Assembly (NCBI RefSeq): GCF_000023105.1
Contig: NC_012669.1
Coordinates: forward strand, 372,001-436,000
DNA length: 64,000 bases
Source: Beutenbergia cavernae DSM 12333
GTDB lineage: Bacteria; Actinomycetota; Actinomycetes; Actinomycetales; Beutenbergiaceae
Reading direction: 5' to 3'
Of this stretch, positions 3,054 to 25,290 are shown in pieces. The notes beneath the pieces are model-generated. The model had not been told where the DNA came from. It saw only the letters and a list, made by a program, of their open reading frames with translations, and ran no database searches. The stretch's first letter is position 1; each line of letters starts with the position of its first letter. The translations under genes were made by a program, and so were the position numbers.

Positions 3054-3296
3054 GTACCTGAACACGGGGGCCGCCGCCTCGGCATCGCGGTAGGTGAACA
3101 CGGGGGGCCGCCGTGTGGGCATCGCGGTAGGTGAACACGGGGGGCCGCCGTGTGGGCATCGCGGTAGGTGAACATGGGGGCCGCCGTGTGGGCATCGCGG
3201 TAGGTGAACATGGGGGCCGCCGTGTGGGCATCGCGGTAGGTGAACATGGGGGCCGCCGTGTGGGCATCGCGGTAGGTGAACACCGGGGCCGCCGCG
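3054..3296. repeat. 36/37-bp tandem repeat array between convergent genes
   Basis: Five complete units start with GTAGGTGAAC at 3090, 3127, 3164, 3200 and 3236 (spacings 37, 37, 36, 36), with a degenerate unit before them and a truncated one from 3272. Each unit contains ACACGG (or ACATGG) followed by CCGTGT, able to form a small GC hairpin. The array fills the junction between the GNAT gene and the end of the nine-gene operon, so it may act as a set of weak bidirectional terminators. Because 36 is divisible by three, the minus strand reads as an open 12-residue repeat; I regard this as incidental. Confidence 0.85.
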
Positions 3297-3370: not shown

Positions 3371-4417
3371 TCAGCTCGGCAGGAGGCCTGCCTGCGCCCA
3401 GCTCGACCCGTCGAAGCCCACCCCCACCCCGATCGGCACGATGCGGCGGCGCGCCGCCGCCGTCGTCGTCGTCGCCCGCTCCGCACCCAGCAACGCGGCG
3501 AGGAGGGCGCGCGCCGCGGCGTCGTCGGTCGTCGCGGACAGGCGCCGCACAGCGTCGTCGTCGTCGGCGAACACCGCACCTGCGGGCGCGAACCAGGTGA
3601 TGGCCACCGGGACGGTACGCCCGCCGGGGCTCGGGCTCTCGCCGGGGCTGGGGCTCTCGCCGGGGCTGGGGCTCCCCCCGGGACCGGGAGCGAACGCGAC
3701 GCTGAGCCCGCACGGCCTGGGCAGCGCCTCGGACCGCAGGAGCTCACGAACACGTGCGCGCAAGAGGCCGTCCGAACCGAGCGTCGACCGCTCGAACGCC
3801 AGGAGGTCCACCTCCTCCGCGCGCTCGGCACGTGCGTACCACTCGGTGGTGCCGTCGTCGGCGACACCGGCCATGCGCCACGTCAGCCCCCACGAGCGGA
3901 ACACGGGATGGGCCGCGGGGTCTGGCAGCCGGGCGCCGTCGGGCACCTCGGCGTACACCTTCGCTCCATCACGTCCGTCCTCGGCGTGGCGCCCGGCGAG
4001 CCACGCCCCGTACCGCAGCGGCCGCCCGTGCTGCGCCTGCGCAAGCGACTGCGTGTCGACGCCGGCCCACGTCCCCGCGAGCGTGAGCCGCTGGGCCGTC
4101 GGCGTCTCCGGCGGGGCGACCTCCGCCGTCCAGCGCAACGACGCATCGCGCCCGGTCCAGGCCAGCTCGACCGGCGCCCCGCTCGTCGTCAGCCGGGAGA
4201 AGCGACCGGCGATCTCGGGCCACGTCGACCGCGCGACGCCGTCGAGCAGAGCGGCCAGCGCCAGGCGCGCCCGCGTCGCCGCCGCCGGCACCACTGCCGC
4301 CGCCCGTTCCAGGGTGCGTTCCACGGCGTCGACGACGTCGGCTGTGGAGCTCGCGGCAGCGGCAGCACTCACGGCGGCGGTCCTCTCGTCGGTCCCGATG
4401 GTCGGCGCGTCCCTCAC
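3371..4417 (-). CDS. Uncharacterised protein, last gene of the nine-gene operon
   Basis: A 348-residue protein of no family I recognise. It has an alanine-rich helical N-terminus (about residues 10-75), a middle part rich in Trp and beta-strand patterns, and a Pro/Ser/Gly linker with three near-identical SPSPGE-type units at about residues 247-265. The C-terminal part ends in [16 protein letters not shown]. There is no signal peptide, membrane helix or catalytic motif. The GTG start overlaps the stop of the preceding gene by 4 bp (GTGA, 4414-4417), so it is translationally coupled and is the 3' gene of the operon. Real coding capacity is supported by this coupling and by the long frame. Function unknown. 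Confidence 0.75.
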
Positions 4418-7404
4418 CGGATCGGCACGAGAATCTCCGTGGACTCGACGAACGCCCGCTGGTCGAAGAGCCCCGGCCCGGAGAACGTGAACCGGTGCCG
4501 ATACGTGCGGAGGTCGCCGTCGCGCAGCGCGATCCGGATGCGCACCGGCTCGACCTGCGTGCCGGGGATCTCCCGCCGCACCTCGCGCACGTAGGAGTTC
4601 GCGTCGTCGCGGTACTCGAGGTCGATGAACACGGTGGCGACAGCCGCCGCGTCGAACTGCGGCACGAACACCACCTCGAGCGCGCTCTCCAGGAGGTCGT
4701 GCACCACGACGACGTCGTCGACCGCCTCGGCCGGCGGCGCCGTCTCGCTCGTGCCGTCGGTCAGGTTCTGCGTCACGGTGAACGTCACGCCGCGCCCGTC
4801 AGGGCCGGGAAGCGCCCCGCGGATCCGGAACGTCTGCGGTCCAGAGTCCTTCGTGAGCGTGAGCAGTCCACGCGGCTCCGGGTCGGCATACCCATGGGCC
4901 TCGAGGCGGATGTCGAGCGACGCGACGGTCTCCCAGTCGACGACTCCCGGCTCGAACCTGATCTCGCGGAACTCCACGTGCTCGAACGGGTTGAGCACGA
5001 GGTCCCGCTTGACCGTGTCGGCCTCGACGACCTCGTAGTGGGCGGCGTCCGCCTCCCAGCCCGCCTGCGGCGCGAAGTCGAAGCGGATCGTGGCGTCGTA
5101 GTCGAGGTCGCGCGTGGAGTTGAGGAAGAACGTGGCGGTCTTCGGCGCGGCGTCCTGCGGCGTGAACGTCAGCTCGTGGTGCTTGTGATCCGCCGGCACG
5201 GCAGGGTCGCCGTAGTCGATCGCGATGTGCGCACGGGACAGCCCGATCGGCGCGAAGTCCGTGGCCGTGCTGGCCGTGATCGTCATCTCGCGGAAGAACG
5301 GGTCGTCGAGGTCGATCTCCTTGAAGAGCACGTCGTCGCCGGCGAGGTCCTTGATGAGCAGCCCGAGGAAACCCTGCGGGGCGAAGACCCGCCGGACCGC
5401 CTCCGCGCGCTGGTACTTCACCGTGAGCTTCTTGCGCTCCTCCTGGCGCACGAACTTGAGCTTGAACGCGACGGCCGTGGGGAGCTCGAGCGGCTTCGCG
5501 CCGCCGCCGGTTCCCGTTCCGGTGCCTGTCCCGGTGCCCGTGCCGGTGCCGGTTCCGGTGCCCGTGCCAGTCCCGGTCCCGGTCCCGGTGCCGGTTCCGG
5601 TCCCCGTGCCAGTCCCAGTCCCAGTCCCGGTCCCGCCGGTCGACGCCGCTCGCGCGATCGTCCCGCTCCACGTCCGCGCCGCCCCAGGCACCTGCGCGGT
5701 GACGTGCACGACACGGTTGTCCGGGTCGCCGCCCATCGGGGAGTGCGTGCCCGGCCGCGTGCTGGCGGGCGTGTCACCCCGCGCGGCCTCCGCCGCGATC
5801 GTGCCGCCGGCGGACGTGACGACGGCGTGCGCGACGGCGAGCCGGCGTTCCGAGAGCTGCTGGTTGTACCGCGTGCGCTGCGTGTCGTCGGAGACGGCGG
5901 GGGAGTGCTCGTGGCTGGCGTGCGCGGACAGGCGCACGCTCTTCGTGCCGGGCAGGGCGAGGATCCAGGCGCGCAGGCGGTCCGCGCCCCGCTCCGGTCC
6001 CGTCCACGCGCCGTCGCCCTCGATCCGCAGCGTCCCCGACGCATCCTGGTACCGCGGATCGGTCGTCGAGTTGGAGACGTACGAGCGGAACTCCGTGCTC
6101 GGCGGCTGCACGGCCCAGCCGTTCCGCGCGGGCTTGTCGAAGTCGAAGAACAGACCGAAGACCTGCTCCGTCGCCGTGCCCGGCCACTCGACCGTGATCG
6201 GGTGCGACGACGCGGCGGCCACGTCGATCACCACGGCACCTCCCGCGCCCGGCGTCACCGCCTTCCCGTCAACGGTGACCTTCGCCCCCGCCCCGGTCAC
6301 CGTCACCGTCTCGGACGTGCCGGTGGCGGACGGCTGGTGCGTGACCGCCAGCCCGGCGGGAAGAGGATTCGGCGACGACGCCGTCGTCGTCAGCGTGGCG
6401 CGTTGCAGGACCGGCGCCGTCGTCCCCCCGGCAGGCGGAGTCCCACCGGCAGGCGGAGTCCCCCCGGCGGGCGGGGTGCCGCCGGCGGGGGGAGTCCCAC
6501 CGGCCGGAGGCGTCGCGGGCGGTGTGGCAGGTGGGGTGGCCGGCGGCGTCGGGATCGTGGCCGAGGCACCCGACGTCGCGAGCTGCCCCGGAACGAGGGT
6601 CGGCTCGAACCACTTCGCGAGCAGGTCGTTCTTGAAGAACTCGAGCGCCCACTTCTCCTGCTCGACCTCGTCCGCCTCGCCGGTGAAGTTGACCACCTTG
6701 ATCGTGATCGCTCCCTCCTGCACGAGCGACTCGAATGCGGCGTCGATGCCCGCCTTCACGAACTTGTACTGCGCCTCGATGCTCGCGCTGAAGTGGTTGA
6801 AGATCCGCTCGAAGTCGGCCGTGATCTCGACGTCGAGCGCCGGCCGCATCGCCAGGTAGTTCATCGTGTAGACGACGCCGATGGGCGCCATCCCGTCCGT
6901 CATCGCCTCGCGCACGATCGTCGCCCCGGCCTGTGTGAGCTTGAGGCTGAACGCGGCGACGTTGCGGTGGTCCATCGACGGCACCGTGGCCCCGAGGATC
7001 GACTCGACCGCGCGGAACGTGCCGGGCCCACCGTCGGGCGCCTCCGTCCCGCCGCTCCCCTGCAGGTCCAGCGCGATGCACTGCACGGTGCCGCCGTCGA
7101 ACGGCGGCTGGGCGAGGATCGGCGTCGCTGTCACCCCGGGCTCGCTCGCGACACGGGCGCGGATGCGGGACTCGGCGTTCGGGGCGAGCGTCAGCACGCT
7201 CTCGAACATCACGAACCCGCCTCCCTCCAGTCCCGTGCCGGCCTCCGCCGGCTTGAACGCCATGAACTGGAACGCGGGCCGGCTCCCGTCCGCGGTCTCC
7301 CCGATCGCCACGTGCGGCGGGAGGTACCAGAAGCGGTTCGGGTCGGCGTGGTCGCGGTACACCGTCATGTCGTCGACGGTGATGGGCTGGGAGAGGCTCA
7401 ACAT
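4414..7404 (-). CDS. Large beta-rich operon protein with embedded OmpA-like domain (paralogue 3)
   Basis: A 996-residue protein. The N-terminal region (about 1-270) is shared with the next two upstream genes: an opening with [15 protein letters not shown], a [11 protein letters not shown] strand, NVAAFSLKL and [16 protein letters not shown] near residue 181. Next come a TPPAGG-type linker (about 285-328) and an OmpA-like domain (about 470-568) marked by [24 protein letters not shown] and [10 protein letters not shown] Gly-Thr repeat linker of about 45 residues (588-633) precedes a second shared module with APQGFLGLL (near 676) and IDLDDPFF, then a chain of beta-sandwich-like repeats. No signal peptide or membrane helix is seen. 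ATG with an AGGA ribosome-binding site. The OmpA-like part suggests binding to cell wall or to a repeating surface; this is inference. Confidence 0.8.
5509..5635 (-). repeat. Gly-Thr (GGNACN)n coding microsatellite
   Basis: Inside the 996-residue protein, roughly twenty imperfect 6-bp units encode alternating Gly-Thr. On the plus strand they read as CCGGTG/CCGGTC variants. Synonymous variation between units shows it is not a very recent expansion. It probably encodes a flexible linker and may vary in length between strains. Confidence 0.85.
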
Positions 7405-7432
7405 GGCGGTGTCCTGACAGTGTGGTCGGGTG

Positions 7433-9712
7433 TCACGGAGTCGTGACGACGAGGTCGAGAGCGGAGGCGGGCTGCCACTCCACGACGCGGGAGAGCCCGT
7501 TCTCGAACAGGAACGTCGAGCGGTACTCGTAGGAGTCGCGGGCGGCGTCGACGTAGTCGTACTCGAAGGCGGCCTCCGCGGTGGCGGCGTCGAGGATCAC
7601 CGTGTCGGCGAAGCTGAGCCCCGCGAGCAGGTCCTCGAACCGGAGCTCGACGGTGACCTTGCGCATCTTCCGGTCGAGGAAGTCCCGGGGACGGTGCACC
7701 CGCACCGCCCGGCGTCCCTTCATCTCCGGGGCCAGCACGATGCGCCGCTCGGCCGTGACGGACTCCGGGAGCGTCACGGTGCGCCCGTCGGCGTACTGGA
7801 ACGTCACCGTGTAGAACACGTCCCGCTTCGTGGGGTCGCGCAGGTCGACGGAGAACTTCTGCGGCGCCGCGCCCTGCTGGAACGTGAACGAGTCCTCGAG
7901 CACCAGCCCGGCGTCCGCGTCCACGTACCGCAGGTCGACGAACGCCGCGGCGAGCTCGGTCCAGACGACGGGCGGCACGACCTCGAGCACCCGCTTCGAC
8001 GGGAACGGGTCGCGGACCGTGACGCCCTCCTCGTCCACGGTGCGCCAGTCCAGCTCGACGTCGCGATGGTCCAGCGCGCGGTACACGAGGCGGACGTCGA
8101 ACGCGCGCCGAGACCGGTCGAGCTGGAACATCATCCAGGTCGACTCGAGGGCGTCGGCCGTCAGCCGCACGGTGTCGCGCTGGCTGATGGCGTTGGCCTC
8201 GTCCGTGTAGCGCAGCTCGACCTCCACGGAGGAGTACGTGGTCCACGGCACGTTCTCGGCACGCAGCGGGATCGGCTTGAACGTGAACAGGTCGACCTCG
8301 GGCGTGATCGGGATCGCGTTCTCGTGCACGGTCTCCACGGGTGACGTCAGCTGGCCGGGGCGCTCGGTCGTGTCGGCGTTCTTCAGGAGCACGTCGTACG
8401 TGACGTCGACGCCGGTCACCAGCGCGCCCGCCGGGTCGAGCTGGTTCGCCCAGTCGAACTCGGTGCTCCACGCTCCCGGCGTGAGGAACGCGTTCTTCGT
8501 GAGTCCGCCGTACGTGGCCCGCACGTTGATCGACGCGATCTCGTCGACGGCGAGGCCGGGCTGGTACGTCGCCGTCAGGCGTCGCCGCTCGAACCACGGG
8601 TCGTCGAGTGGGATGCGCTTGACGAACGTCTCGCGTGGCAACCCGCTGGCCGCGATCAGCGACAGCAGCTGCCCGAGGTGGCCCTGCGGGTGGATCGTGC
8701 GCTGGATCGTCACCCGCTCGGAGAAGTTGACGTCGAGCTTCTTGCGGTCGATCCGGGTGTAGTCGGTCTTCTTGTAGGAGAACGTCGCAGCGGTGGTGGC
8801 CGGGCCCCCGGCGGCCGCCGACGCGCCCTTGGCCGCGAGCCCGCCGATGACGTTGAGGGCGCGCTCCCAGTCCGGTGTCTTCTCCGGCGTCCACGGCGGG
8901 ATCGACGGCGTGAAGAACGCGTCAGTGATCATCTGCCGCACCTGCGCGACGGCGAGGTCGCGCCGTTCGAGGATGCCCTCGTGCTCCTCGCCCTCGGGCA
9001 CGAACGTGTCGGCCGAGAACACGATCGCTCGCGACTCCACGAGCTCGTCCACCGCCGTCGAGATCTCCGTGGAGAAGAACATCACGCTCGCCCCGAACGT
9101 CTCGTCGAGGTGCTTCTGCACCCGGTCCCAGTCGATCGAGAGCGTGACGTTGTAGGCCGGGCGCAGCCCGAGGAACTCGAGCGAGTACGCCACCACGATC
9201 GGGAGGATCGCCCCGTCGAGGCAGGCCTCGACGGCCGTGAAGCCCGCCTTGTCGAGGTGCACCGAGAACGCCGCCTGGTTGACGCCGTACAGCGCGGGCG
9301 CCGTGTCGTTGTCGATCGACAGCACGAACCGCGGATGCCCCTCGATCACCTCCGTGGGGCGGTCCGACTCGCCGTCGAGCATCTGCATCCGCACCGTCCC
9401 GCCGACGAGCGGCACCGGCACCACGCGCGGGACGTCGTCGAGCCCCGCGGTGCGCTGGATCTCGCGCGCGATCCCGTCGAGCCGGTCGGTGGCGACGCCG
9501 AGGTTGCAGTCGAGGTTGAGGAAGCCGCCCGAGCCCTCGACCCCGGTGTACGCGAAGAGCAGCACGCTCGGCACGTCGGTGCCGCTGCCCTCGTCGCGCA
9601 CCGTGGTGATGTGCGGCGCGGTGGGCAGGTAGTACCACTGCAGCGGGTCGGCGTGGTCGGGGAACACCGAGATGTCGTCGATGACCTGGCTGCGGCTGTC
9701 GAGCAGGAGCAT
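7433..9712 (-). CDS. Large beta-rich operon protein (paralogue 2)
   Basis: A 759-residue protein paralogous to its two neighbours. It opens with [20 protein letters not shown] and a [10 protein letters not shown] strand, continues with NQAAFSVHL and [16 protein letters not shown] near residue 180, and has [12 protein letters not shown] near 342 followed by IPLDDPWF. The rest is about four repeats of roughly 90 residues with strand patterns of the type VEVELRYTD...V and [13 protein letters not shown], typical of an Ig/FN3-like sandwich. There is no signal peptide, membrane segment or enzyme motif. The ATG at 9712 is preceded by AAAGGA eight bases upstream. The frame stays open far beyond this point, but that part overlaps the next gene and has no homologous start. 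Function unknown. Confidence 0.82.
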
Positions 9713-9741
9713 GGCGGGTCCTTTCGCCTCGTGCCGGCGAC

Positions 9742-11925
9742 TCAGGCCGGGAGCTCGGGGAAGATCGTGGTTCCGGTCTCCGTGGTGGGGCCGACCACCT
9801 TGCGGGTGCCGTCCATGAGGAAGAACGTGATCGTCGACGTGAAGTCCGTCTTCGCCGGGTCCTTGAGCGGGATCGTCCACACCGGGGGCGTCGCGGCCGG
9901 GGCGTCGAACGTGAAGTCCTTGCGCTCCCGGACGGCGTTCGTCTCGTCCAGATAGGCGAGGGCGACCAGCACCACCTTGACCTTCGTCCAGTCGACGAGG
10001 TTCGTCATGATCGTCACGTCGAGCTTGTCCGCGACGATCTCGCCGACGGCGATGATGCTGTCCGTCGTCGTCGTCGGGCCGAACGGCTCTGTGGTCCCGT
10101 CCTTGCGGCTGATGAAGCCCGAGTACGTGACCGAGCCCGCGGTGTCGTCGAACACCGGGAACGCCCACTCGAGGAACGGCATGTCCGCCGAGAGCACAGC
10201 CGTCTTCTTCTGCGTGTAGTCGTTCCCCGGGTCCGTGTAGGTGGCGTCGATCGTGACGCTGGCGATCTCGTTCGCCAGGTCGCCGAGCGCCCGGAACGTG
10301 ATGGTCCGCGGCGCGCCGAACGGGTCCCGCACGCTCAACGTCGTCTGCCCGACGTCGATCGTCCCGGGCGTGCCGGTGACGTCGCGGCCGTCGTCGAGCG
10401 AGTAGGTGACCTTGTACGTCACGGGCGTCGTGCGCGCCTCCTTGATGACCTCCCGCACCTGCGCGTTCGGGGCCTCGGCGGTGAGGTTCAGCGTCTTCAC
10501 CACCGGCGTCGCGCCGTCGTACCGGAGCTCCACGGACGTGCGTGGGACGCGGGCGAAGTCGATGCCGTCCGCGGCGATGTCGACGGAGAGCACGCCGAGG
10601 TCGTCGACGTTGATGACGACCTCGTCGCCCGACTCCGTGAACTCCTCGGACGTGAACGAGAACGCGCTGTTCTCGTAGTTCACCGTGTAGGTGTACGTGA
10701 CGTCCCGCTTGCCGTCGTGCACGAGGGACTCGAACTCCCAGACGTCGTCGGCCGAGGTGAACGTCTCGCTGTCCGTCTTCGGCTGCGGCCCGAACGGGTA
10801 CGTCATCGACACGGCGACCGTATGGATGGGCAGGTTCTCGAACGGCGCGTTCACCCGCACGTTGACGCGCTTGTCCTTGAAGAACTCGTCCGCCGAGATC
10901 TTCGTGTAGTAGTCCTCCCACTTCAGGGCGTTGCCCTCGGCGTCCTTGAGCGTCGTGATGCTCGGGAGCTGGCCCTGCGGGTGCTTGGAGATGAGCGTCG
11001 CCTTGGACTCCGTGAGGTCGACGCGCACGTTCGCGATCTGCGTGCTCGAGATCGTCCGCTGGATGTTCTCGAAGTCCTGCTCGTCGTACAGGCTCTTGAC
11101 GTTCGGGTCGACCTCGGCGGCCGCCGTCAGGAGGTTCCGCTCGACCTGCTCGGCGAGCATGCTCTGGATCGCCGTGCGGATCTCGGACTGGATCTTCGCG
11201 TTCTCCTCCGCCGTGAGGTTCGGGTTGTCGACGAAATCGCCCCCGATCGTCTGGACCTCGCTGTTGTAGCGGCTGGACTCCACGACCTCCGTGTAGGAGT
11301 CCTCGCTCCAGGTGTTCTCCTCGTAGTCGACACTCTGGAAGAAGCTGTAGAACTTCTCGGCGTGCCACTCGCCCCAGGCGTGCATCTTCGGCAGCCGCCC
11401 GAAGTACTCGAGGTTGTAGATCACCGTGATCGCGGAGTTCGCGCCGGTCGACAGCGTGTTCTTGAAGACGGCGGTGCCGATGTCCGTGAGCTCGAGCGCG
11501 AAGCACGCGACATTCGTGTTGTACAAGGACGGGATCGCGGCGCCGTGCTTCTTCTCGACGAGCGCTCCGCCGTCCTCGAGGAGCAGCGTCACGCTGCCCT
11601 TCGCCCAGTTGATCGGCGCGAGGGTCACCTGCGGGGCCTCGCGGCCGGCGTACTTCCGGGTGACCTCCTCCTGCAGCTTCGCCTTGATCGCGGCTTCCGT
11701 CTCCGCCGGGATCGCCAGGTCGGCGGAGAACACGACGAACCCGCCGAACGTGTCCTCGCCCTCGAGTCGCAGCTGCTCGTACTCGATGAATCGCAGCTGC
11801 AGTCCGCCGTCGGGGGTCCGAGCGAACGCCGGACCGTTGGGGAAGATGTAGAACGTGGAGTCGCTGGTGTCGTCGCCGTGGACGGTGTACCCGTCGACGA
11901 GCCGGATGTCGTCTACCTCGAGCAT
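9742..11925 (-). CDS. Large beta-rich operon protein (paralogue 1)
   Basis: A 727-residue protein and the most diverged of the triad. The N-terminus has DIRLVDGYTVHGDD, YIFPNGPAF and GGFVVFSADLAI, matching the other two in order. NVACFALEL and VIYNLEYFGRLPKM lie near residue 171, and KHPQGQLPS near 315. From about 330 on there are repeated sandwich-like units ending in patterns such as TYKVTYSLDDG and TSTITFFLMDGT, with fewer prolines and more Asp/Thr than its neighbours. It starts with ATG behind a GAAAGG ribosome-binding site and lies 11 bp after the short linker gene. No export signal or catalytic motif is visible. Shared order of motifs supports origin by duplication. Confidence 0.82.
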   Translation of the reverse strand: MLEVDDIRLVDGYTVHGDDTSDSTFYIFPNGPAFARTPDGGLQLRFIEYEQLRLEGEDTFGGFVVFSADLAIPAETEAAIKAKLQEEVTRKYAGREAPQVTLAPINWAKGSVTLLLEDGGALVEKKHGAAIPSLYNTNVACFALELTDIGTAVFKNTLSTGANSAITVIYNLEYFGRLPKMHAWGEWHAEKFYSFFQSVDYEENTWSEDSYTEVVESSRYNSEVQTIGGDFVDNPNLTAEENAKIQSEIRTAIQSMLAEQVERNLLTAAAEVDPNVKSLYDEQDFENIQRTISSTQIANVRVDLTESKATLISKHPQGQLPSITTLKDAEGNALKWEDYYTKISADEFFKDKRVNVRVNAPFENLPIHTVAVSMTYPFGPQPKTDSETFTSADDVWEFESLVHDGKRDVTYTYTVNYENSAFSFTSEEFTESGDEVVINVDDLGVLSVDIAADGIDFARVPRTSVELRYDGATPVVKTLNLTAEAPNAQVREVIKEARTTPVTYKVTYSLDDGRDVTGTPGTIDVGQTTLSVRDPFGAPRTITFRALGDLANEIASVTIDATYTDPGNDYTQKKTAVLSADMPFLEWAFPVFDDTAGSVTYSGFISRKDGTTEPFGPTTTTDSIIAVGEIVADKLDVTIMTNLVDWTKVKVVLVALAYLDETNAVRERKDFTFDAPAATPPVWTIPLKDPAKTDFTSTITFFLMDGTRKVVGPTTETGTTIFPELPA

Positions 11926-11936
11926 GGTGCTGCCTT

Positions 11937-12674
11937 TCAGGTGGTCCGCCAGGCGGCGGCGTCGGTGAGCAGGACGATCGGGCCGGGTTCGGAGGGTGGT
12001 CCGGGAGGCGCGACGTGGGTGTCGTGCCGCTCGGTGGCGACCCGCTCGTGGGTCGTGCCGCCCTCGGGCGAGGCGTCGCCACGGCTGGACGTGGTGGTGG
12101 TGGTGGTCGTCGTCGACGAGAAGGAGGAGGACGACGACGTCGTGGCCTCCCGGGTGGGCGCCGGCGCCTCGGTCAGGGTGTAGCGGGCGGCCAGCTGCCC
12201 GCTCGTGCCGTCGAGCGCGGCGCGTACCGCGGCGACGCGCGCGGGGCTCAGCGGGACGGCGAACGCGGCGGAGTACGGCGGGACGCCGGAGGTGACGCGC
12301 CGCGCGAGGCAGATCCAGCCGCCGTCGCCGTCGCCGACGAGCAGCTCGGCCGGCGCGACGTCGAGGCGGGCGGGCCGCAGCGTCAGCTCCGCCGGCGGCA
12401 CGCCCTCGCGCCGCGCGAGCTCCTTCGCCAGGGCGGCGACGGCGTCGTCGTCAGCGGGCAGGAGGGTCGTGAGGTTGAGGAAGGCGTCGTCGCCGGCGGC
12501 GATGAGCGTGACGCTTGGTCGGCCGCGGGCGTCGCGCGCCACGCCGACGGCGTCCGGCCGGTACGTCCACTCGGTGGGCCCGACGCGGCGCGCGTGCAGG
12601 CCGTGCGCCGTCAGCTGCGGCACCGGCGCGCCGGGCACGCCCGGCGGCCGGGCGCCGGCCGCCCACCCGGTCAC
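11937..12674 (-). CDS. Short operon protein with Ser/Thr-rich linker
   Basis: A 245-residue protein with no recognised family. Residues 1-185 look like a small alpha/beta domain with PTEWTYRPDAVGVARDARG, an FLNLTTLLP segment and GGWICLARRV. A run of Ser then Thr residues (about 185-205) follows, with a hydrophilic tail. The GTG start at 12674 overlaps the stop of the preceding gene by 4 bp (GTGA), which is why I prefer it to the longer upstream reading. It lies between a large putative structural gene and the paralogue triad, and could be an adaptor. That role is a guess from position only. Confidence 0.72.
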   Translation of the reverse strand: MTGWAAGARPPGVPGAPVPQLTAHGLHARRVGPTEWTYRPDAVGVARDARGRPSVTLIAAGDDAFLNLTTLLPADDDAVAALAKELARREGVPPAELTLRPARLDVAPAELLVGDGDGGWICLARRVTSGVPPYSAAFAVPLSPARVAAVRAALDGTSGQLAARYTLTEAPAPTREATTSSSSSFSSTTTTTTTTSSRGDASPEGGTTHERVATERHDTHVAPPGPPSEPGPIVLLTDAAAWRTT

Positions 12675-14437: not shown

Positions 14438-14438
14438 G

Positions 14439-16760: not shown

Positions 16761-16771
16761 GGGTCAGCCCC

Positions 16772-19700
16772 TCACAGAGCGATCGTGTCGGCGTAGACGA
16801 GGCGCGTGACGCGGGTCGTCGCACCGCGCACGTTCGGGGAGTCCGGGGCGTCGGCGTCGAGCAGCTCGTGCTCCTCGACCAGCACGCGCCAGTGCTCCGA
16901 GGCGCCCGGCGTGCGCAGCGCGACGTCGAACGGGACGCCGTCGGGCCGTTCGTCAGGCGCCGGAAGGGCGAGCTCGCCGCTCCAGGTCGCGAGGAAGTTC
17001 GTCTCGTCGCCGATGCCCACCAGCGGCAGGCGGCGGCTCGCGACGTCGACCCACTGCAGGTCTGTCCCGCCGGTGGCGCGGGCCTGGAGCGTGAGCCGCA
17101 CGGTGCGCGTGCGGCGCACGAGGGCGTCGATCGCGCTCACGGACTCCTCGGGTTCCTCGCGCTCGTCGTCGTCCCCGCGCTCGAGTCCCCGCAGCAGCGC
17201 GATCACGCCGGTGAGCGTGAGGCGTACCCGGTCGGCGTCCGGCCGGCTCACCGTCGCGGTGCGCGTGGGCAGCGGTTGGATCCACTCGACGAGGTCGACG
17301 GCGGAGAGCTCGCACCGGGCGATTGAGTGCGGCTGGTAGCGGGCGACGGCGAGACGCACGAACGGCCACAGGGTGGAGGTGGCGTCGAGGGCCACGTCCA
17401 CGTACCACTGGCCGCGCCCGGGGTGGAACACGGGGACGTACCCGCACACGGTGACCGCGGGTCCGGCGTCCTCGCCCGGCAGCGGCACCGCCGGTGCCAC
17501 GGTGAGGGGCCGGGCGACGTCGGGGCCGCCGGGGGAGGACCCGTACGCGGCGAGCAGCAGCTGCTCGCCGGTGAGCAGCGGGGGCCGGGACATGCCGGGC
17601 ACCTGCGCCCCGGCGAGCACCGGGTCGCGCCCCCACGCGCTCACCACGCCGGACGGGTTCTTCTCCGTGCCGAGCAGGACGCCGAGCAGCTCGCCGTCGC
17701 CCGAGGAGAACCAGGGGCGGCGCAGCCAGATCCGCACGCCGGAGCGTCGGACGCGCCGCAGCGCGAACGGCTGGTCCGGTTCCGTGGTGGTCTCCCAGCG
17801 CAGCAGCGGGACGGCGCCGGCGAGGTGCGCGGCGGCCGGCCGGGCCGTGGACGGGATGACCAGCTCGACGCTCTCGCCGGCGAGCGCGGGGTCGTCGTCG
17901 GCCGGGACGTCGGCGGCGGCGAAGAACTCGCGGTACCGGGTGGTCCCGGTCGGCGTGTAGGTCACGCGGCGGTGGTGGGTGTCGGTGAACGTGTGGATGG
18001 CCCGGTGCAGCTGGACGCCGGCGGCCGCGAGCGGGCCGAGCTCGTCGTCCGCCGGGTCCGGCGCCCAGTCGACGGTCGACAGGACGCCGAGCCGTTCGGC
18101 GCCGCCCACCGGGGAGTTGACGACGACGTCGTCCCGCGCCACCTCGGCCGGCGCCGCGATCGCCACGTCGTCGACCTGCTCCGTCCAGCGGGCCTTCACG
18201 AGCAACCGGTCCGTGCTGGCCCCGTGCACGTCGACGAGCCCGACGAGCGGAGCCACCGTGATCCCCGGCGTCCGGGCTCCGCACCGCAGCACACGGAGCT
18301 CGGGCGGGCGGGCCGGCGTCGGGATCGCGTGCACGAGGCGCACGTCGACGCTGGGGGTGAGCCACCAGGTCCAGCCGGACACGGCGGCCTGGCGGAGCAG
18401 GTCGGCCGCCGCGAGGACCGCCGGCTCCGCGCTGGAGCGGTCGATCCCGCTGACCGGGTGGGAGCGCCACAGGCCGAGCTTCTCCAGGTCGTCGGTGCGC
18501 AGCGACGACGAGACGGCGACCCGCACCTGCTCGCCTGGCGGCAGGCTCACGTGGATGGCCCGCCCCTCGAGGCGCGCCCCGAGCTCGCCGCCACCGGCCA
18601 GCACCAGGCGCAGCGGTTCGACGGTGGGCCACGTCCCGGGGAACGGGATGACGACGGCCTGCAGCACCCGCGCATCGGGCAGCAGGTGCGGGTCACCGGC
18701 GTCGTAGAACACGAGCGCGACGCCGGCCGCGAACACGTCCGGCAGGTACGGCAGCCGGAGCTCGTCGACGTCGTGCACCACGTACTGCCCCTCGCCGAGC
18801 GGGGTGCCGCGCCCCGCGCCCTCCAGGTCGGCGAGCGTGACGGCGGTGTCCGGGTCGGCGTCCGGGCGGGCGTGCAGCGCGATGTCCGGCTGCTCCAGCT
18901 CGGCGCCCGGGTTCGCCGGGTCGGGCACGAACCGGTCGGTGAGCGTGCCGCGTTCCACGAGCGCCCAGCCGTACGCCGCCCTCTGCACGGCCGGGTCGGT
19001 GCTGCCGATCGCGGCGTCGAACGCGCTGCTCGTCTCGGCCTCGAGCTGGTGCGTCTTCGGCGGCACCACGTGCCGCTCGCTCGTGGCGGCGGCGTCGGGC
19101 GACGACGGCGGAAGGCCGGTCCGGACGACCAGTCGCGAGAGCTGTTCTCCGGTCGTGAGCGGCGCGCGCGCCACGAGCGCCGGGGCGCCGACCGGCTCCC
19201 ACCGCAGATACGGCCGCGGCGTGGTGACGACCGGCCGGGGTCGGGGGAGCGGCCGGCCCGGGATCGGGAGTCCGGGCCGCCGCAGCACGTCGCCGAGGCC
19301 GGCGAGCGCCTCCGGGTCGATCCCCAGCTGCGGCCGGGTGCGCCAGACCTCGGCGTGCTCGGCGATCCGGCGCGACGCCGCGGCGACGCTGCGATGCAGC
19401 CCGGCGACGGTGGGCGCGACGCCGGGGGGCAGGCCCGCCGCACCACCCGCACCGCCGGCAGCCCGGCTGGCGGGGTCGGCGCCTCGGACGGCGTCCGCGA
19501 CCCGCTGGGCCACGAACGCGTCGATGCGCGGCTCCCCCGTGCGCACGGCCCGCGGCAGCGTGTACGGGCGGGCGGACGACGCGCCGCCCGTGGCGCCCCT
19601 CCGTCCGCGGCGACCGGTACGCGACCGGCGCGCCCCGCCGTCATCGCCGGGCGTGACGCCGCCCAGCCATGCGGCGTCGTCGTCCGCGTCCCTCGGCAAC

Positions 19701-21646
19701 GACGCCAGGACGTCGTCGCGGATCACGGAGACGAGACCGCCGCCGTCGCGGCGGGCGTAGCTGGCGCGCAGCCCGTCGAGGTGCGTGCGGGTGGCGGCGA
19801 GGTCGGGCCGGCGAGGCCGTGGCGTCCGCACCACCGAGTTCCCCGCCAGGTCGACGCCCACGAGCCGGAACGCGTACGACGTCCCGTAGCGCAGCCGCGG
19901 CAGGGTCCCGGGCGCGACCGTGGACCGGATGTGCACGCCGGACACGGCGGCGTCGCCGTGCGCGTCGCGCGGGTCGTCGACCACCTGCTCCTCGCCGCCC
20001 GGACCGTGCACGATCACCTTGCCCGGACGCGGTGCGGCGAGGCTCCACCCGTCCCAGCCCGCCACGACCTCGTGCAGGTAGTACGGGTTCGCGTCGTTGC
20101 CCGGCACCCGGTTGAGGCCGGAGAGCTGGAGGAACCCGGTGTCTGCGGTGCCCGTGAGGACATCCACCGGGACGTCGTCGTCGCCCGTCGCCGTCACGTC
20201 GACGAGGCGTTCGTGCACGCTGTGCCAGTCCTCGGACGCGTCGTCCCACACCTCGAGCCGCAGGCCGCGGACGACGTCGTCGTAGATGAGCTCCGGGCCG
20301 CTCACGCCGGGGCCGTCGTCGGGCGACGTGAGCTGCTCGGCCGCCTGCACCCGTTCGCGCGTCGCCGCCACGCGATCGGTGCGCGCGATGCCGAACCCTG
20401 TGGCACGCAGCGTGGCGGGCGCGGCGCTGGCCTCGTCGCCGTTGACCTCGGACGCGAGGCTGCGCGGCAGGTTGCGCAGGTGCTGGTCGAGCTTGAGCCC
20501 CGACGCGTCCGGGTCGAGGTCGAGCACCACGTACTCCTCCTCGCCGAGGGGGACGGCGCCCGCGACCCAGGCGTCGGAGGAGATCGCCGCGACGACGTCG
20601 CCGCCGACGATCACCCGCAGCCGCGGCGGGGCGAGCGAGACGACGTCGGGCGCCTCGCCGTCGTCATCCGCCGGCACGAGCCGCGCCGCGATCCACGACG
20701 CGCCCTCCAGGGCGGCGCGGTCGGCGTCGGACAGCGTCACGTCGAGCACGAGGCCGAGCCGGCGCAGCAGCGCCGGCGTGGAGCCGAGGCCGGCGGCGCG
20801 GGCGTGGAAGTCCGGGTCGGGCTCCTCGGGGCGGGGCGTCGTCGCGCCCGGCGTGGGCTCGCGCTGGTAGGGCGTCTGCTCCTCGGGGCGGTCGTAGTAG
20901 CGCCGCGTCGCGTGGGCGTCGGCCATGAGCTGGAGCACGGGCTGGGAGCTCAGGTCGTCGTCAAGCAGGCCGTCGAGGTAGGCGTTCAGCTTCTTCTCGT
21001 CGACGGCGCCGCGTTCGTCCAGCAGCACCTCGATCGCCGACGGCGTCCGCTCGTCCGTCTCGCTCGGGTACCCCTCGCGCGACCCGAGCGTCCCCAGGCT
21101 CGCGCGCGCCTCGAGCAGGCGGCGCTCCAGCAGCCGCCGGGAGCGGACCGACTTCTGCTCCGCGAGCGCGAGGAGGTTGCGGACGGCGGGGTGCACCTGC
21201 ACGAGCTGGTCGATGACGGCGGCAGCCGGCGGACTGTCCATCACGCCCGGGCGTGCGGTGGGCGCCGCCAGCGCTGACGTGAGCTGCAGGTCGACGGCGT
21301 GGTCGGCCAGGCGGTGCGCCGGGTAGCTGTTCCACTCCGCCGCGGACACCTGAGGCTCGGGGAAGCCGTCCACGCGCAGACCCGGCGGGAAGACGGCGCG
21401 CCAGGCTGCGGCGTCGGGGTCGGACACGATCGTGGCGGGCAGGGGATCCGCGAGGTGCGACGCGAGGATCTCCACGCGGAGCCCCGCGAGCGTGGTCACC
21501 CAGTCCGCGGCCGCCGGGAAGTCCGCGAGGGTCGAGCCCACCGCCTGGGGCGTGAGCCGGTGCGTGACGAACACGGACAGGTGCGCCGGCGCGCCGGCCG
21601 CCAGGGTCACCGGGAGCGCCGTCGTGAGGATGCGGGTCGTCGTCAT
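16772..21646 (-). CDS. Giant operon protein with FN3-like modules
   Basis: A 1,624-residue protein, the largest of the operon. The N-terminus (PAHLSVFVTHRLTPQ) and FPAAADWVTTLAGL look like a conserved opening domain. Near residue 595 there is LRYGTSYAFRLVGVDLAGNS, a pattern typical of FN3-like sandwiches. A basic Arg/Gly stretch (about 669-692) separates the N- and C-terminal halves. The second half has YLRWEPVGAP (about 812), YLPDVFAAGVALVFYDAG and FPGTWPTVEPLRLVLAGG, again beta-rich. No signal peptide, membrane helix or catalytic motif was found. The ATG at 21646 follows an AGGAGC ribosome-binding site. Similar large proteins exist in bacteria as unnamed conserved proteins to my memory; I can give no function. 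Confidence 0.8.
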   Translation of the reverse strand: MTTTRILTTALPVTLAAGAPAHLSVFVTHRLTPQAVGSTLADFPAAADWVTTLAGLRVEILASHLADPLPATIVSDPDAAAWRAVFPPGLRVDGFPEPQVSAAEWNSYPAHRLADHAVDLQLTSALAAPTARPGVMDSPPAAAVIDQLVQVHPAVRNLLALAEQKSVRSRRLLERRLLEARASLGTLGSREGYPSETDERTPSAIEVLLDERGAVDEKKLNAYLDGLLDDDLSSQPVLQLMADAHATRRYYDRPEEQTPYQREPTPGATTPRPEEPDPDFHARAAGLGSTPALLRRLGLVLDVTLSDADRAALEGASWIAARLVPADDDGEAPDVVSLAPPRLRVIVGGDVVAAISSDAWVAGAVPLGEEEYVVLDLDPDASGLKLDQHLRNLPRSLASEVNGDEASAAPATLRATGFGIARTDRVAATRERVQAAEQLTSPDDGPGVSGPELIYDDVVRGLRLEVWDDASEDWHSVHERLVDVTATGDDDVPVDVLTGTADTGFLQLSGLNRVPGNDANPYYLHEVVAGWDGWSLAAPRPGKVIVHGPGGEEQVVDDPRDAHGDAAVSGVHIRSTVAPGTLPRLRYGTSYAFRLVGVDLAGNSVVRTPRPRRPDLAATRTHLDGLRASYARRDGGGLVSVIRDDVLASLPRDADDDAAWLGGVTPGDDGGARRSRTGRRGRRGATGGASSARPYTLPRAVRTGEPRIDAFVAQRVADAVRGADPASRAAGGAGGAAGLPPGVAPTVAGLHRSVAAASRRIAEHAEVWRTRPQLGIDPEALAGLGDVLRRPGLPIPGRPLPRPRPVVTTPRPYLRWEPVGAPALVARAPLTTGEQLSRLVVRTGLPPSSPDAAATSERHVVPPKTHQLEAETSSAFDAAIGSTDPAVQRAAYGWALVERGTLTDRFVPDPANPGAELEQPDIALHARPDADPDTAVTLADLEGAGRGTPLGEGQYVVHDVDELRLPYLPDVFAAGVALVFYDAGDPHLLPDARVLQAVVIPFPGTWPTVEPLRLVLAGGGELGARLEGRAIHVSLPPGEQVRVAVSSSLRTDDLEKLGLWRSHPVSGIDRSSAEPAVLAAADLLRQAAVSGWTWWLTPSVDVRLVHAIPTPARPPELRVLRCGARTPGITVAPLVGLVDVHGASTDRLLVKARWTEQVDDVAIAAPAEVARDDVVVNSPVGGAERLGVLSTVDWAPDPADDELGPLAAAGVQLHRAIHTFTDTHHRRVTYTPTGTTRYREFFAAADVPADDDPALAGESVELVIPSTARPAAAHLAGAVPLLRWETTTEPDQPFALRRVRRSGVRIWLRRPWFSSGDGELLGVLLGTEKNPSGVVSAWGRDPVLAGAQVPGMSRPPLLTGEQLLLAAYGSSPGGPDVARPLTVAPAVPLPGEDAGPAVTVCGYVPVFHPGRGQWYVDVALDATSTLWPFVRLAVARYQPHSIARCELSAVDLVEWIQPLPTRTATVSRPDADRVRLTLTGVIALLRGLERGDDDEREEPEESVSAIDALVRRTRTVRLTLQARATGGTDLQWVDVASRRLPLVGIGDETNFLATWSGELALPAPDERPDGVPFDVALRTPGASEHWRVLVEEHELLDADAPDSPNVRGATTRVTRLVYADTIAL

Positions 21647-21663
21647 CGTTGCTCCTGGGCTCC

Positions 21664-24600
21664 TCAGACGGCCGCGAACGCGGCGCAGTAGCGGGACCAG
21701 TCGGCGTTCTCGCCGGTCACGGGATCGGGCGGCATGACGTCGGCCAGCGTCGGGTCGCCCTTCGAGCCGGCCAGCTTGCGTTCGCACGTGATCTCGACCG
21801 ACGCGGAGAAGAACAGCACCTCGACCTCGACCACGAGCGACGCCCGGCCGATCAGCTTCCCGGTCTCGAAGTGATACGTCAGCGACAGCTCGAGCGTGAT
21901 CGACGCCGAGATGAGGCCGAGCACGTCCACCTCGCCGCGGATCCGGAAGTACGCCGTCAGCAGCCCCTTCTCACCCTCGAGGCGCAGGTAGACGCCGACG
22001 GCGATCGACACCGACCCGGACGCCACGCCCAGGTCGATCGACAGGCACGCCGTCGCCTCGAGCCCGAGCTCGAGCACGACGAGCCCCTTCGGCGACGCAC
22101 GCAGCTCGAGCCAGCCGCCGCCCCCGATGCACATGACGGTGAGGCGGAACGGGGAGTCCTTGCGGCAGAAGTGGAAGCCGACGGTGACGGCGTCGCCGAG
22201 GAACGGCACGCGCGCGTCCGCGCCGAGCGAGAGGTTCTCCAGGCTGAACACGCCGACCGACACGTTCGGGAGCGCGAGGTCGAAGCCGGCCGTCACCCCC
22301 TCGGGCGACACGTCGACGAACGGCGGGTCGGCGAACCCGTCGAACGGGATCAGCTGCCGCAGCGTCTCCACGAACGAGAGCGGGCCGAGGAACTCCATCC
22401 CGCCGAAGACGACGTCGATCTCCGGTTTCGCGCCGGACGACGCGCGGAAGCCGACGCGCCGGAAGGTCATCGCCATGAGTTCCGCGTTCGGCAGGAGCTG
22501 GAGGGCGAAGGTCGTCAGCTCCGCGACGACGTCGACGCTCGGGGGCGACGTCGCGCTGCCGCGGACCTCGACGGCGAGGCGGAGCCCCTGGGGATCGTCG
22601 GCGCGGAAGACGGGGCTGCCCGTGGTGGGCCAGCTCCGGATCTTCGGCTTCCACTCCAGGCGGGCGACGACGGCGCCGTCGGGGCTGAGGAGGCCGTCCA
22701 GGAAGTCCGAGAGGGCTTTCGTCACGAGGGCGACGTCGGCCCCGAGCGCCGCCAGGGCGCCGACCGGGCGCTGGAGCGCCGCCCGCAACGCGGCGGGGAT
22801 CTGGGGCGCCTTGAGGGCGTCGTCCAGCGGGCCGAGCCGCCCCACGATGCTTGCCAGGGCGTCGGTGACATCCGTGATGGTGGCGGCGCTGAGGTTCTCG
22901 ACGGCGTCGACCAGCGCGTCGAGGTCCACGAGCAGCGGGTTCAGCACCGCCTCGAGCTGGGCGCGGGCGGCCTCGACGCCGGCCCGGGCGCCGTCGTGCG
23001 CCGCGCCGGCGACCTCTGCGGCCAGACGCGGGCCGGCGTCGGCGGCGGCGGCGCGCAGCCGGCTCGCCTCGCTCACCAGCGTGCTGACGGCGTCGAGCGT
23101 CTCCGTCACGAACTCCGGCGCGCCTCCGAGGCCGAGCTTCTCGAGCAGCTCCACGAGGTCGAACAGGCCGAACAGCTTCGGCATCGCGCCCGCAAGGAAC
23201 GTGCCCGGATCGAACTCGCCCTGCGAGAGGCCCGCGGGCGCCGTCCCGTCGTCACCGACGGCGCCGAGCGAGCGGGACAGCCCCCGCACCGCCAGGCTCG
23301 GCGCGAGGAAACCGCCCGAGCGGTCGGAGCCGCCCGAGAAGTCGACGGCGGGCGGGGCGCCGGTGACGGACAGGAACACCTGGCCGGGGTTGCCGGCGCC
23401 GAAGCCGCGGTCGGGGTCGCCCGCCGGCGCGGCGGCCGCCGCGTCCAGGTAGGGCTGCGCGTAAGCGAGGTCGACGCCTGGCGCTTGCGGCGCGAGGTGC
23501 CGCATCGCCGGGACGACGGCGTTCGTCGTCACCAGCGAGGGGCGCGACGTGCGGGCGTCGACGTCGATCGTGCCGGTGAAGCGCAGCGTGTTGACCTCGA
23601 AACGGGTGTCTCCCGAGACGGCTGACGACGCGAACGTGATCTGCTGGCCGCCGGCCGGGATGGTGCCGATCGGCGCGTACGCGGCCTCGGCGAGCGCCTG
23701 GACGTTCGGCTTCTGCAGGGCGAGATCCGGCACGAACACCAGCGGTGCGCGCAAGGTGGACGGGCGGCCGCCGGCGTCGATCCCGGTGAGCGTGAACAGG
23801 AACGGTTCGCCGGCCCGGCTGGGGACGATGGGGTCATCGACCGGAGACGGGGCGGGGTCGAGGTTCGGCGTCACCTCGGGGTCGATAGCGATCCAGCGGT
23901 ACGGGTCGTCCGCGTCGGAGTAGGTGCGCTCGCGCTGCTTGATGACGATGAACGTGCGCTGCCACAACGCGGCGACGGGGTCGTCGAGGTGGGCGATCTT
24001 GCGCTCGCTCAGCGTGACCCACAGGCAGCGGTGCCCGGGCCAGAACAGGAAGCCCGGTCGTGCGACGCGCACGTACCAGTCGCGACCCATCGTGGCCTGG
24101 TGCCGGTACTGCGCGAGCAGCTCGACGCCGTCCTCGATGGGATCGTTGGGGTCGAACACGTCGGTGGACGCCCAGTCCCCCGCGAGGTCGAGCCACGCCC
24201 CGAGGGTCGAGAGCGCGAGGGCGCGCGCGTCGATCGGCGTCGCAGGCTTCGGCATGGTGCGGCTCGTGGTCTGCCGCACGAGCGCGCGTCTGTCCGCCGG
24301 GGCGAGCGACGTCGGCTGGATCTGGTGCGGGTCGGTGGTGGCGGGGCGGTCGATCGGGTCGAGGTCGCGTGACCAGATCGCGCGGACCGGGCGCTCGGCG
24401 GTCTCGTCGAGACCCACGAACGCGCCGTCGTCGTCCGTGAGGCGCGTGGTGAGGTGCGTGCGCCACAGCTCCGCGCGCTCGGGGTCCTCCAGTGCGACCA
24501 ACGGTTCGGCGTCGTGCGTGAACGCGCCGTCCTCGCCCGGGGAGAGCGTGACGCGGTACGGGGCCTCGATCGCCGTCTCGTCCTCTTTCGGTGCTCGGGG

Positions 24601-25290
24601 CCGGGGCGAGGGGCGGGGGATCGGTCGGGGGCGCGGCGCTCGTGGGAGCAGGTCTCCGAGGCGCACGGGGCCCGCCGCGAGGCCGGCGGCGGCCCGTGCG
24701 GCCTGGACCGAGCGGAGCGTCTGGGCGCGCTGCAGCACGTGGGCGGCGGGGCGGGCGAGCCGGGCTGCCTCGAGCGCGGCGTCCCCGGTGGCCCGCACGA
24801 GGTCCGCGGGGCTGACGCCGCGCCGCAGCCGCCCGCGGGGCGTGAGCAGTCGCTCCCAGCCGGGGGCCGGGTCGATGCCGCGCAGCGGCCGGCCCGGCCG
24901 GACGGGAGCGGGGCGGCGGGCGTCCGGGGCGAGACGCAGCGCGAGCGTGCGCATCGCCGTGAGGACCCCGGCGATCGTGAACGGGACGCTCGCGCCGTCG
25001 TCCAGCGCGAACACGATGCGGCTCGCCGCCGCCGCCCGGTGCCCGACGAGCGCCGGTTCCTTCGGGAACGGCGGCGGTGGGTTGCCCACCGGCTCGGGCA
25101 GCGTGCGCTCCGTGACGTGCTGCGGCGGCAGGTGGAGGACGAGCGACGCGTCCCGTCCCGCCGTCAGGACCGGTCCGTCGGCCGTCTCGGTGAGCGTGCA
25201 GCCCGGCGCGCTGATCCGGACGTCGAGCAGGTCCCTCGCGCGGAGCAGCCGTGCCTCGGGGGCACGTGGCGTCCGCCTCGGTGGTGGCAT
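21664..25290 (-). CDS. First operon protein: helical core and long beta-rich C-terminus
   Basis: A 1,208-residue protein. The N-terminal region is mixed and ends in a Pro/Arg-rich linker (about 213-233). A middle beta-rich region contains YVRVARPGFLFWPGHR and FLFTLTGIDAGGRPS. A roughly 140-residue Ala/Leu/Asp helical segment (about 727-867) looks like an elongated bundle or coiled coil. Residues about 900-1160 form long alternating strands, for example FSLENLSLGADARVPFLGD, FRLTVMCIGGGGW and SVSIAVGVYLRLEG, as in a large beta-helix or barrel-like sheet. No signal peptide precedes it, so it is not a conventional secreted or outer-membrane barrel. ATG behind GGGGAGAG. First gene of the nine-gene transcript; function unknown. 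Confidence 0.8.
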   Translation of the reverse strand: MPPPRRTPRAPEARLLRARDLLDVRISAPGCTLTETADGPVLTAGRDASLVLHLPPQHVTERTLPEPVGNPPPPFPKEPALVGHRAAAASRIVFALDDGASVPFTIAGVLTAMRTLALRLAPDARRPAPVRPGRPLRGIDPAPGWERLLTPRGRLRRGVSPADLVRATGDAALEAARLARPAAHVLQRAQTLRSVQAARAAAGLAAGPVRLGDLLPRAPRPRPIPRPSPRPRAPKEDETAIEAPYRVTLSPGEDGAFTHDAEPLVALEDPERAELWRTHLTTRLTDDDGAFVGLDETAERPVRAIWSRDLDPIDRPATTDPHQIQPTSLAPADRRALVRQTTSRTMPKPATPIDARALALSTLGAWLDLAGDWASTDVFDPNDPIEDGVELLAQYRHQATMGRDWYVRVARPGFLFWPGHRCLWVTLSERKIAHLDDPVAALWQRTFIVIKQRERTYSDADDPYRWIAIDPEVTPNLDPAPSPVDDPIVPSRAGEPFLFTLTGIDAGGRPSTLRAPLVFVPDLALQKPNVQALAEAAYAPIGTIPAGGQQITFASSAVSGDTRFEVNTLRFTGTIDVDARTSRPSLVTTNAVVPAMRHLAPQAPGVDLAYAQPYLDAAAAAPAGDPDRGFGAGNPGQVFLSVTGAPPAVDFSGGSDRSGGFLAPSLAVRGLSRSLGAVGDDGTAPAGLSQGEFDPGTFLAGAMPKLFGLFDLVELLEKLGLGGAPEFVTETLDAVSTLVSEASRLRAAAADAGPRLAAEVAGAAHDGARAGVEAARAQLEAVLNPLLVDLDALVDAVENLSAATITDVTDALASIVGRLGPLDDALKAPQIPAALRAALQRPVGALAALGADVALVTKALSDFLDGLLSPDGAVVARLEWKPKIRSWPTTGSPVFRADDPQGLRLAVEVRGSATSPPSVDVVAELTTFALQLLPNAELMAMTFRRVGFRASSGAKPEIDVVFGGMEFLGPLSFVETLRQLIPFDGFADPPFVDVSPEGVTAGFDLALPNVSVGVFSLENLSLGADARVPFLGDAVTVGFHFCRKDSPFRLTVMCIGGGGWLELRASPKGLVVLELGLEATACLSIDLGVASGSVSIAVGVYLRLEGEKGLLTAYFRIRGEVDVLGLISASITLELSLTYHFETGKLIGRASLVVEVEVLFFSASVEITCERKLAGSKGDPTLADVMPPDPVTGENADWSRYCAAFAAV

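Follow-up and report, generated by a model that had tools for sequence, protein, structure and literature searches.

A seven-gene cassette of YYLP-domain proteins and a DMATS-like protein adjoins a separable gene pair in Beutenbergia cavernae

Layout and coding evidence of the nine-gene run

The window analysed here is a 64,000-nucleotide stretch of the Beutenbergia cavernae DSM 12333 genome (NC_012669.1, positions 372,001 to 436,000), in which nine consecutive minus-strand genes, g1 to g9, occupy positions 3371-25290. The run begins with g1 (21664-25290, 1208 aa, with a conserved C-terminal beta-meander at ~870-1208) and g2 (16772-21646, 1624 aa), which adjoins g1 at every locus with a flank read. 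These are followed by g3 (14439-16760, 773 aa), with an FYYLP-like motif in mid-protein and a C-terminal module akin to the one in g7, and by g4 (12671-14437, 588 aa), a paralogue of the YYLP family described below. The next four genes are g5 (11937-12674, 245 aa; a YYLP domain with a low-complexity tail), g6 (9742-11925, 727 aa; a YYLP domain and repeats), g7 (7433-9712, 759 aa; a YYLP domain at ~1-345 preceding four Fn3/Ig-like domains) and g8 (4414-7404, 996 aa; a YYLP domain, a long insert with a Gly-Thr repeat, and repeats). The last gene, g9 (3371-4417, 348 aa), encodes a DMATS/ABBA-type prenyltransferase-like protein. The intergenic spacings from g1 to g9 are 17, 11, 1, -4, 11, 29, 28 and -4 bp, with the two 4-bp overlaps at 12671-12674 (g4/g5) and 4414-4417 (g8/g9). 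The ORF coordinates thus bear out the earlier note on the number, strand, position, size range (245-1,624 residues) and tight spacing of the genes, and its failure to see a signal peptide or membrane helix also held, as none of the nine proteins has a signal peptide or a convincing membrane helix.

For each of the nine genes, the in-frame coding score (+74 to +692, obtained with a codon table trained on the other genes of the window) exceeds that of all five other frames. Their GC3 is 0.90-0.98, and the overall GC content of g6 (0.66) and g7 (0.70) compares with 0.74 for the window. The order of seven of the genes is kept in unrelated genomes (see below), which chance could not produce. Tandem repeats are present in and near g8 and g9: a 6/42-bp repeat at 5506-5635 inside g8 encodes ~20 Gly-Thr units, so that length changes by whole units would stay in frame, while just downstream of g9 lies a 36-bp tandem repeat (3059-3294, 6.5 copies, 96% identity) and, farther on, a second 36-bp array (2432-2533, 2.9 copies).

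Searches of Pfam, NCBIfam, PHROGs and PADLOC returned nothing at curated cut-off for the g3-g9 cassette of the window, and g1 and g2 had neither a family match nor a PDB profile match. The only PADLOC hit among the nine proteins was a chance-level match of g2 to RmrT (E 0.036). No sheath, tube, baseplate or spike protein was found in the operon with PHROGs, Pfam or NCBIfam, nor was any sheath gene found in the whole genome by a search with positive controls. No match to T6SS or Tc machinery was seen either. A phage-tail, T6SS or contractile identity is therefore rejected, in agreement with the earlier note, which had recognised no such hallmark; its proposal of an undescribed system is likewise consistent with our finding no known system that most of the members clearly match.

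Two separable cassettes and their distribution

The nine-gene run is composed of two separable cassettes, g1-g2 (16772-25290) and g3-g9 (3371-16760), as the two occur apart elsewhere. In a sample of 396 actinobacterial genomes, drawn from a much larger phylum, g2 is present in 12 and g7 in two; one of these two is the window genome and the other is devoid of g2. The g2 gene is also found on plasmids of Cupriavidus, Rhizobium, Diaphorobacter and Streptomyces. No g1-g2 pair was seen adjoining the other g3-g9 loci among the g7-relative loci read, and none was found elsewhere in the genome of a Methanosarcinales archaeon that carries g3-g9. Within the scope of the genome-wide co-occurrence analysis (this archaeon and two 396-genome phylum samples), the window genome is the only one seen to carry both g2 and g7. 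Profile comparisons found g1 unrelated to g6, and g2 unrelated to g3. The earlier note had taken all nine genes to encode subunits of one assembly; the tight operon and the paralogy of g4-g8 fit this view, but the independence of g1-g2 argues against a single nine-gene system. No sign of a particle, or of release by lysis, emerged from the analysis.

The sole functional hint for g1-g2 is the presence of patatin neighbours at two loci. On the megaplasmid of Cupriavidus metallidurans CH34 (L024, 10998-20985) the pair is directly followed by a patatin-like gene, and a patatin gene is located near the pair in Rhizobium (L026). The joining of g1-g2 to g3-g9 in the window may be fortuitous, or the pair may substitute for parts that are missing from the local g3-g9 copy.

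Relatives of the g3-g9 cassette were gathered via g7, yielding 18 loci in which start codons were picked by script. The search for the same gene order in other genomes, as proposed in the earlier note, was successful for g3-g9: the order g3-g4-g5-g6-g7-g8-g9 is kept in Nakamurella, Nitrospira, five Lysobacter, Marmoricola, Hydrogenophaga, Cellulomonas, Caldilineaceae, Paenibacillus and the Methanosarcinales archaeon, that is, across several phyla and in an archaeon (with g5 unrecognised in three of these loci). Partial or variant copies are found in Microbacterium, a Chloroflexales bin and cyanobacteria, as well as on plasmids of Pararhizobium, Paracoccus, Azospirillum and Calothrix. For example, the Calothrix plasmid (L064, 16559-28054) carries a mini-version consisting of a YYLP protein, g9, an alpha/alpha-toroid-like protein (see below), a second short YYLP protein and a 1494-aa protein resembling g6 at its end. 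Another locus, L004, is among those that have neither g9 nor the toroid.

The g7 gene is absent from all 58 relatives in the family or order of the window organism, and in the g7 tree the Actinomycetota fall in two well-supported parts. This patchy distribution, together with the division of the Actinomycetota, makes horizontal spread of g3-g9 likely, although a tree pattern that needs two or more changes does not by itself prove transfer. A phage or viral origin is rejected, since g7 has no relatives in phage records or viral contigs.

YYLP paralogues, the DMATS-like g9 and the terpene-cyclase-like toroid

Profile-profile alignments connect most of the large proteins of the cassette. The g6 and g7 profiles align over their full length (hhalign E 3e-64), and further links were obtained for g5-g6 (E 2.3e-11), g4-g7 (1.3e-8) and g4-g8 (3.4e-8). 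We conclude from these comparisons that g4-g8 are paralogues sharing an N-terminal domain of ~275-345 residues, termed here YYLP after one of its motifs (DHADP..WYYLP and GGFL are typical). The weaker links of g3, at its C-terminal end (E 6.5e-5) and at the FYYLP motif (8e-4), suggest that it is probably a paralogue as well; its match to ribonuclease Z, at 20 bits where the cut-off is 363, was treated as chance. PDB profile searches with g1, g2, g3, g7 and g8 found nothing, and an OmpA-like assignment of the g8 insert was dropped as neither Pfam nor PDB gave support.

The AlphaFold2 model of g7 (mean pLDDT 77, pTM 0.38) displays four C-terminal Fn3/Ig-like domains (375-757). The sandwich modules that the earlier note had predicted for what it called beta-rich proteins are hence seen in g7, the one protein covered by modelling. 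The g7 N-domain modelled alone with a 49-row paralogue alignment reached a pTM of 0.62. It has no convincing counterpart in the PDB (best Foldseek E-value 0.11, VIA-align Z at most 5.2), which leaves its fold unassigned but does not prove it new, and no resemblance to a pore former was found in the fold searches. A relationship of g7 to alpha2-macroglobulin, complement or teneurin was discarded, as only Ig/Fn3 folds are in common (TM-scores ~0.1, Z at most 7.2).

The earlier note had seen no enzyme motif in any of the nine proteins, and this has to be revised for g9. Of the 15 members of the g9 family, four match Trp_DMAT (PF11991; best E 0.005, below curated cut-off), more than match any other Pfam family, but the window g9 is not among the four. 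The best PDB relatives of the g9 profile are DMATS aromatic prenyltransferases (among them 4yzj and 6zrz) with E-values of 0.03-0.08; one of these alignments is nearly full length, and g9 is colinear with the bacterial DMATS 6zrz (E 0.07). The family motifs S-x-LT-x-x-G-x-P-x-E ... R and K-x-Y contain the invariant residues E84, R95, K153 and Y155, and Y194 is invariant too. Of these, E84, R95 and K153 (each conserved in all 15 members) align to Glu89, Arg100 and Lys187 of FgaPT2. In that enzyme (PMC11443524), Glu89 contacts the acceptor, and donor binding falls to Arg100, Lys187 and Lys259. Thus g9 resembles a DMATS-type (ABBA) prenyltransferase: its acceptor and diphosphate positions are occupied by Glu, Arg, Lys and Tyr, and most donor-site residues are kept. 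Marginal in E-value, this assignment rests on motif conservation. On the other hand, every member of the g9 family has Glu (E192) in place of Lys259, which makes the activity of g9 uncertain, and its catalysis may be altered or lost. A Lys is found at this position in two fusion proteins, from Paracoccus and Deinococcus, described below. The genomic setting differs as well, g9 being part of an operon of giant Fn3-type proteins and not of a metabolite cluster.

Directly after g9, 13 of the 18 loci with g9 carry a gene for an alpha/alpha-toroid-like protein of 250-360 aa. All 13 toroids have an intact DxDDT. Class II terpene cyclases have DxDD as their acid motif. In this motif and in its toroid-type sequence the protein resembles the monodomain members of that class, such as MstE and prenylcyclase 6ij1, but its profile has no match in Pfam or PDB; a match of one toroid to VMAP-M20 (E 7e-4) was read as chance. 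The sole link of the toroid to known cyclases is provided by the Paracoccus fusion, which the toroid profile matches with an E-value of 0.002. This fusion has PDB matches to squalene-hopene cyclase and MstE over its N-terminal part (E 3e-6 to 5e-3) and aligns colinearly with g9 over its C-terminal part (E 0.016); its acid motif reads DSDST. A comparable arrangement is found in a Deinococcus plasmid gene (L063, 13737-15902), where a SQHop_cyclase match (E 4e-10) precedes a g9-like domain (g9 profile E 6e-6); this gene is broken by two in-frame stops, and no YYLP proteins are annotated within 14 kb on either side. The window operon has no toroid gene, and a search of the whole window genome, run without a positive control, did not find one either.

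The pairing, or fusion, of a cyclase-like with a prenyltransferase-like domain has a parallel in NctPC and ChrPC, in which a prenyltransferase and an MstE-like cyclase modify Trp in ribosomal peptides (PMC13290415). The likeness has its limits: the prenyltransferase part of ChrPC is trans-IDS-like and g9 is DMATS-like, and NctPC and ChrPC act on RiPP precursors, whereas no short precursor peptide was seen here.

Variable neighbours and the possible role of the cassette

Four loci carry a protease gene between g8 and g9. It encodes a caspase in Nitrospira, Hydrogenophaga and Paenibacillus (Peptidase_C14, E 1e-21), the His/Cys motifs being intact at all three loci; PADLOC also gave a caspase match (E 1e-25). 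The first two of these loci have a second g8 paralogue as well. In Caldilineaceae the gene encodes a trypsin, a family present at two loci overall. The Paracoccus locus includes two trypsin-like genes, EAD1, a STAND-type NTPase, PLD and tyrosinase, the Azospirillum locus an HBL-type pore-forming family protein, and the Marmoricola locus patatin and tyrosinase. On the Methanosarcinales contig (L037, 1-18638) a contractile injection system, comprising sheath, tubes, spike, two baseplate-J-like proteins and a baseplate V domain, starts on the same strand ~1.9 kb after the last cassette gene. No protease is present in the window operon.

The composition of the cassette in terms of gene content, conservation, paralogy and domain assignments is well supported, and from it we infer, tentatively, a cytosolic hetero-oligomer that would be matured by isoprenoid chemistry, and sometimes by proteolysis, for conflict or competition. 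The cassette supplies up to six paralogous YYLP proteins and a dedicated g9, to which most relatives add the monodomain class-II-terpene-cyclase-like protein and some an endoprotease. Because of their paralogy and the tight coupling of their genes, the large YYLP subunits would be expected to assemble with one another. The residues conserved in g9 and the RiPP parallel suggest that g9, with the cyclase if present, may attach and fold an isoprenoid onto an aromatic residue of a subunit or partner, and the protease, where there is one, might switch or mature the assembly by cleavage. The system as a whole probably serves biological conflict or competition, given its neighbours (proteases, PLD, patatin, an HBL-type pore former, EAD/STAND and, once, a contractile injection system). 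The window locus would then be a composite of two horizontally moving cassettes; with cyclase and protease missing and the unrelated g1-g2 placed in front, its copy may use a simpler modification step. The boldest form of this model, a mobile machine spanning Bacteria and Archaea in which the giant cytosolic sandwich proteins are meroterpenylated by the DMATS-type enzyme and the monodomain cyclase, with a caspase or trypsin arming or switching the resulting conflict device, we regard as unlikely.

A search of open-access papers for a g3-g9 system surfaced only the description of NTP-dependent conflict systems (Kaur et al. 2020, PMC7159879). Like g3-g9, these systems have FNIII-repeat components and a patchy distribution, and they share caspase/trypsin, EAD1 and STAND neighbours with some g3-g9 loci. 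However, their defining MoxR/vWA or GTPase/GAP1 switch is missing from the window operon: Pfam detected no MoxR, STAND or GTPase switch there, and none was recognised in most related loci, a STAND protein occurring beside the Paracoccus copy only. A text search of that paper found no description of the YYLP domain. A seven-gene cassette shared across phyla and between Bacteria and Archaea, nearly all of whose proteins lack a curated family, points to a molecular machine that has yet to be described. Nothing in the libraries and literature searched combines prenyltransferase-like and terpene-cyclase-like proteins with giant paralogues and cell-death-type proteases in this way. The g3-g9 genes are annotated only as hypothetical proteins; mass shifts, cleavage and co-purification offer testable handles.

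Other explanations of the same gene set can be weighed on this evidence. It is conceivable, though on balance doubtful, that the product of g9 (with the cyclase) is a prenylated, cyclised aromatic metabolite and that the YYLP-Fn3 proteins carry or enclose it instead of serving as the substrate. DMATS enzymes and monodomain class II cyclases usually use small aromatics (PMC7839719), tyrosinase genes are present at two loci, and the Deinococcus cyclase-g9 fusion lacks annotated YYLP neighbours, all of which would suit a small-molecule product; the operon, however, has no recurring precursor synthase, oxidases or transporters, and five or six giant paralogues exceed the needs of a carrier. We likewise give little credence to a protease-gated effector, in which g9 and the toroid would be dead structural parts and the caspase or trypsin, if present, would free a toxic YYLP N-domain. 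The position of the protease between g8 and g9, the PADLOC caspase match, the extra g8 paralogue at two caspase loci, the EAD1 and STAND neighbours in Paracoccus and the replacement of the DMATS lysine by E192 are in its favor. Yet most loci, including the window, are devoid of a protease, no resemblance of the N-domain to a pore former was found, and dead enzymes would have no need of the conserved DxDDT and E/R/K residues. Finally, that g3-g9 is a payload or accessory set of an extracellular contractile injection system is very improbable, the adjoining archaeal system being countered by the absence of any contractile component from the g3-g9 operon, of a sheath gene from the window genome, of recognisable contractile genes from the ~10 kb on either side of the other loci, and of g7 relatives from phage or viral collections.

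Elsewhere in the window, a plus-strand gene (30319-35040) encodes a 1573-aa protein with a signal-peptide-like start that is probably secreted and multi-domain.
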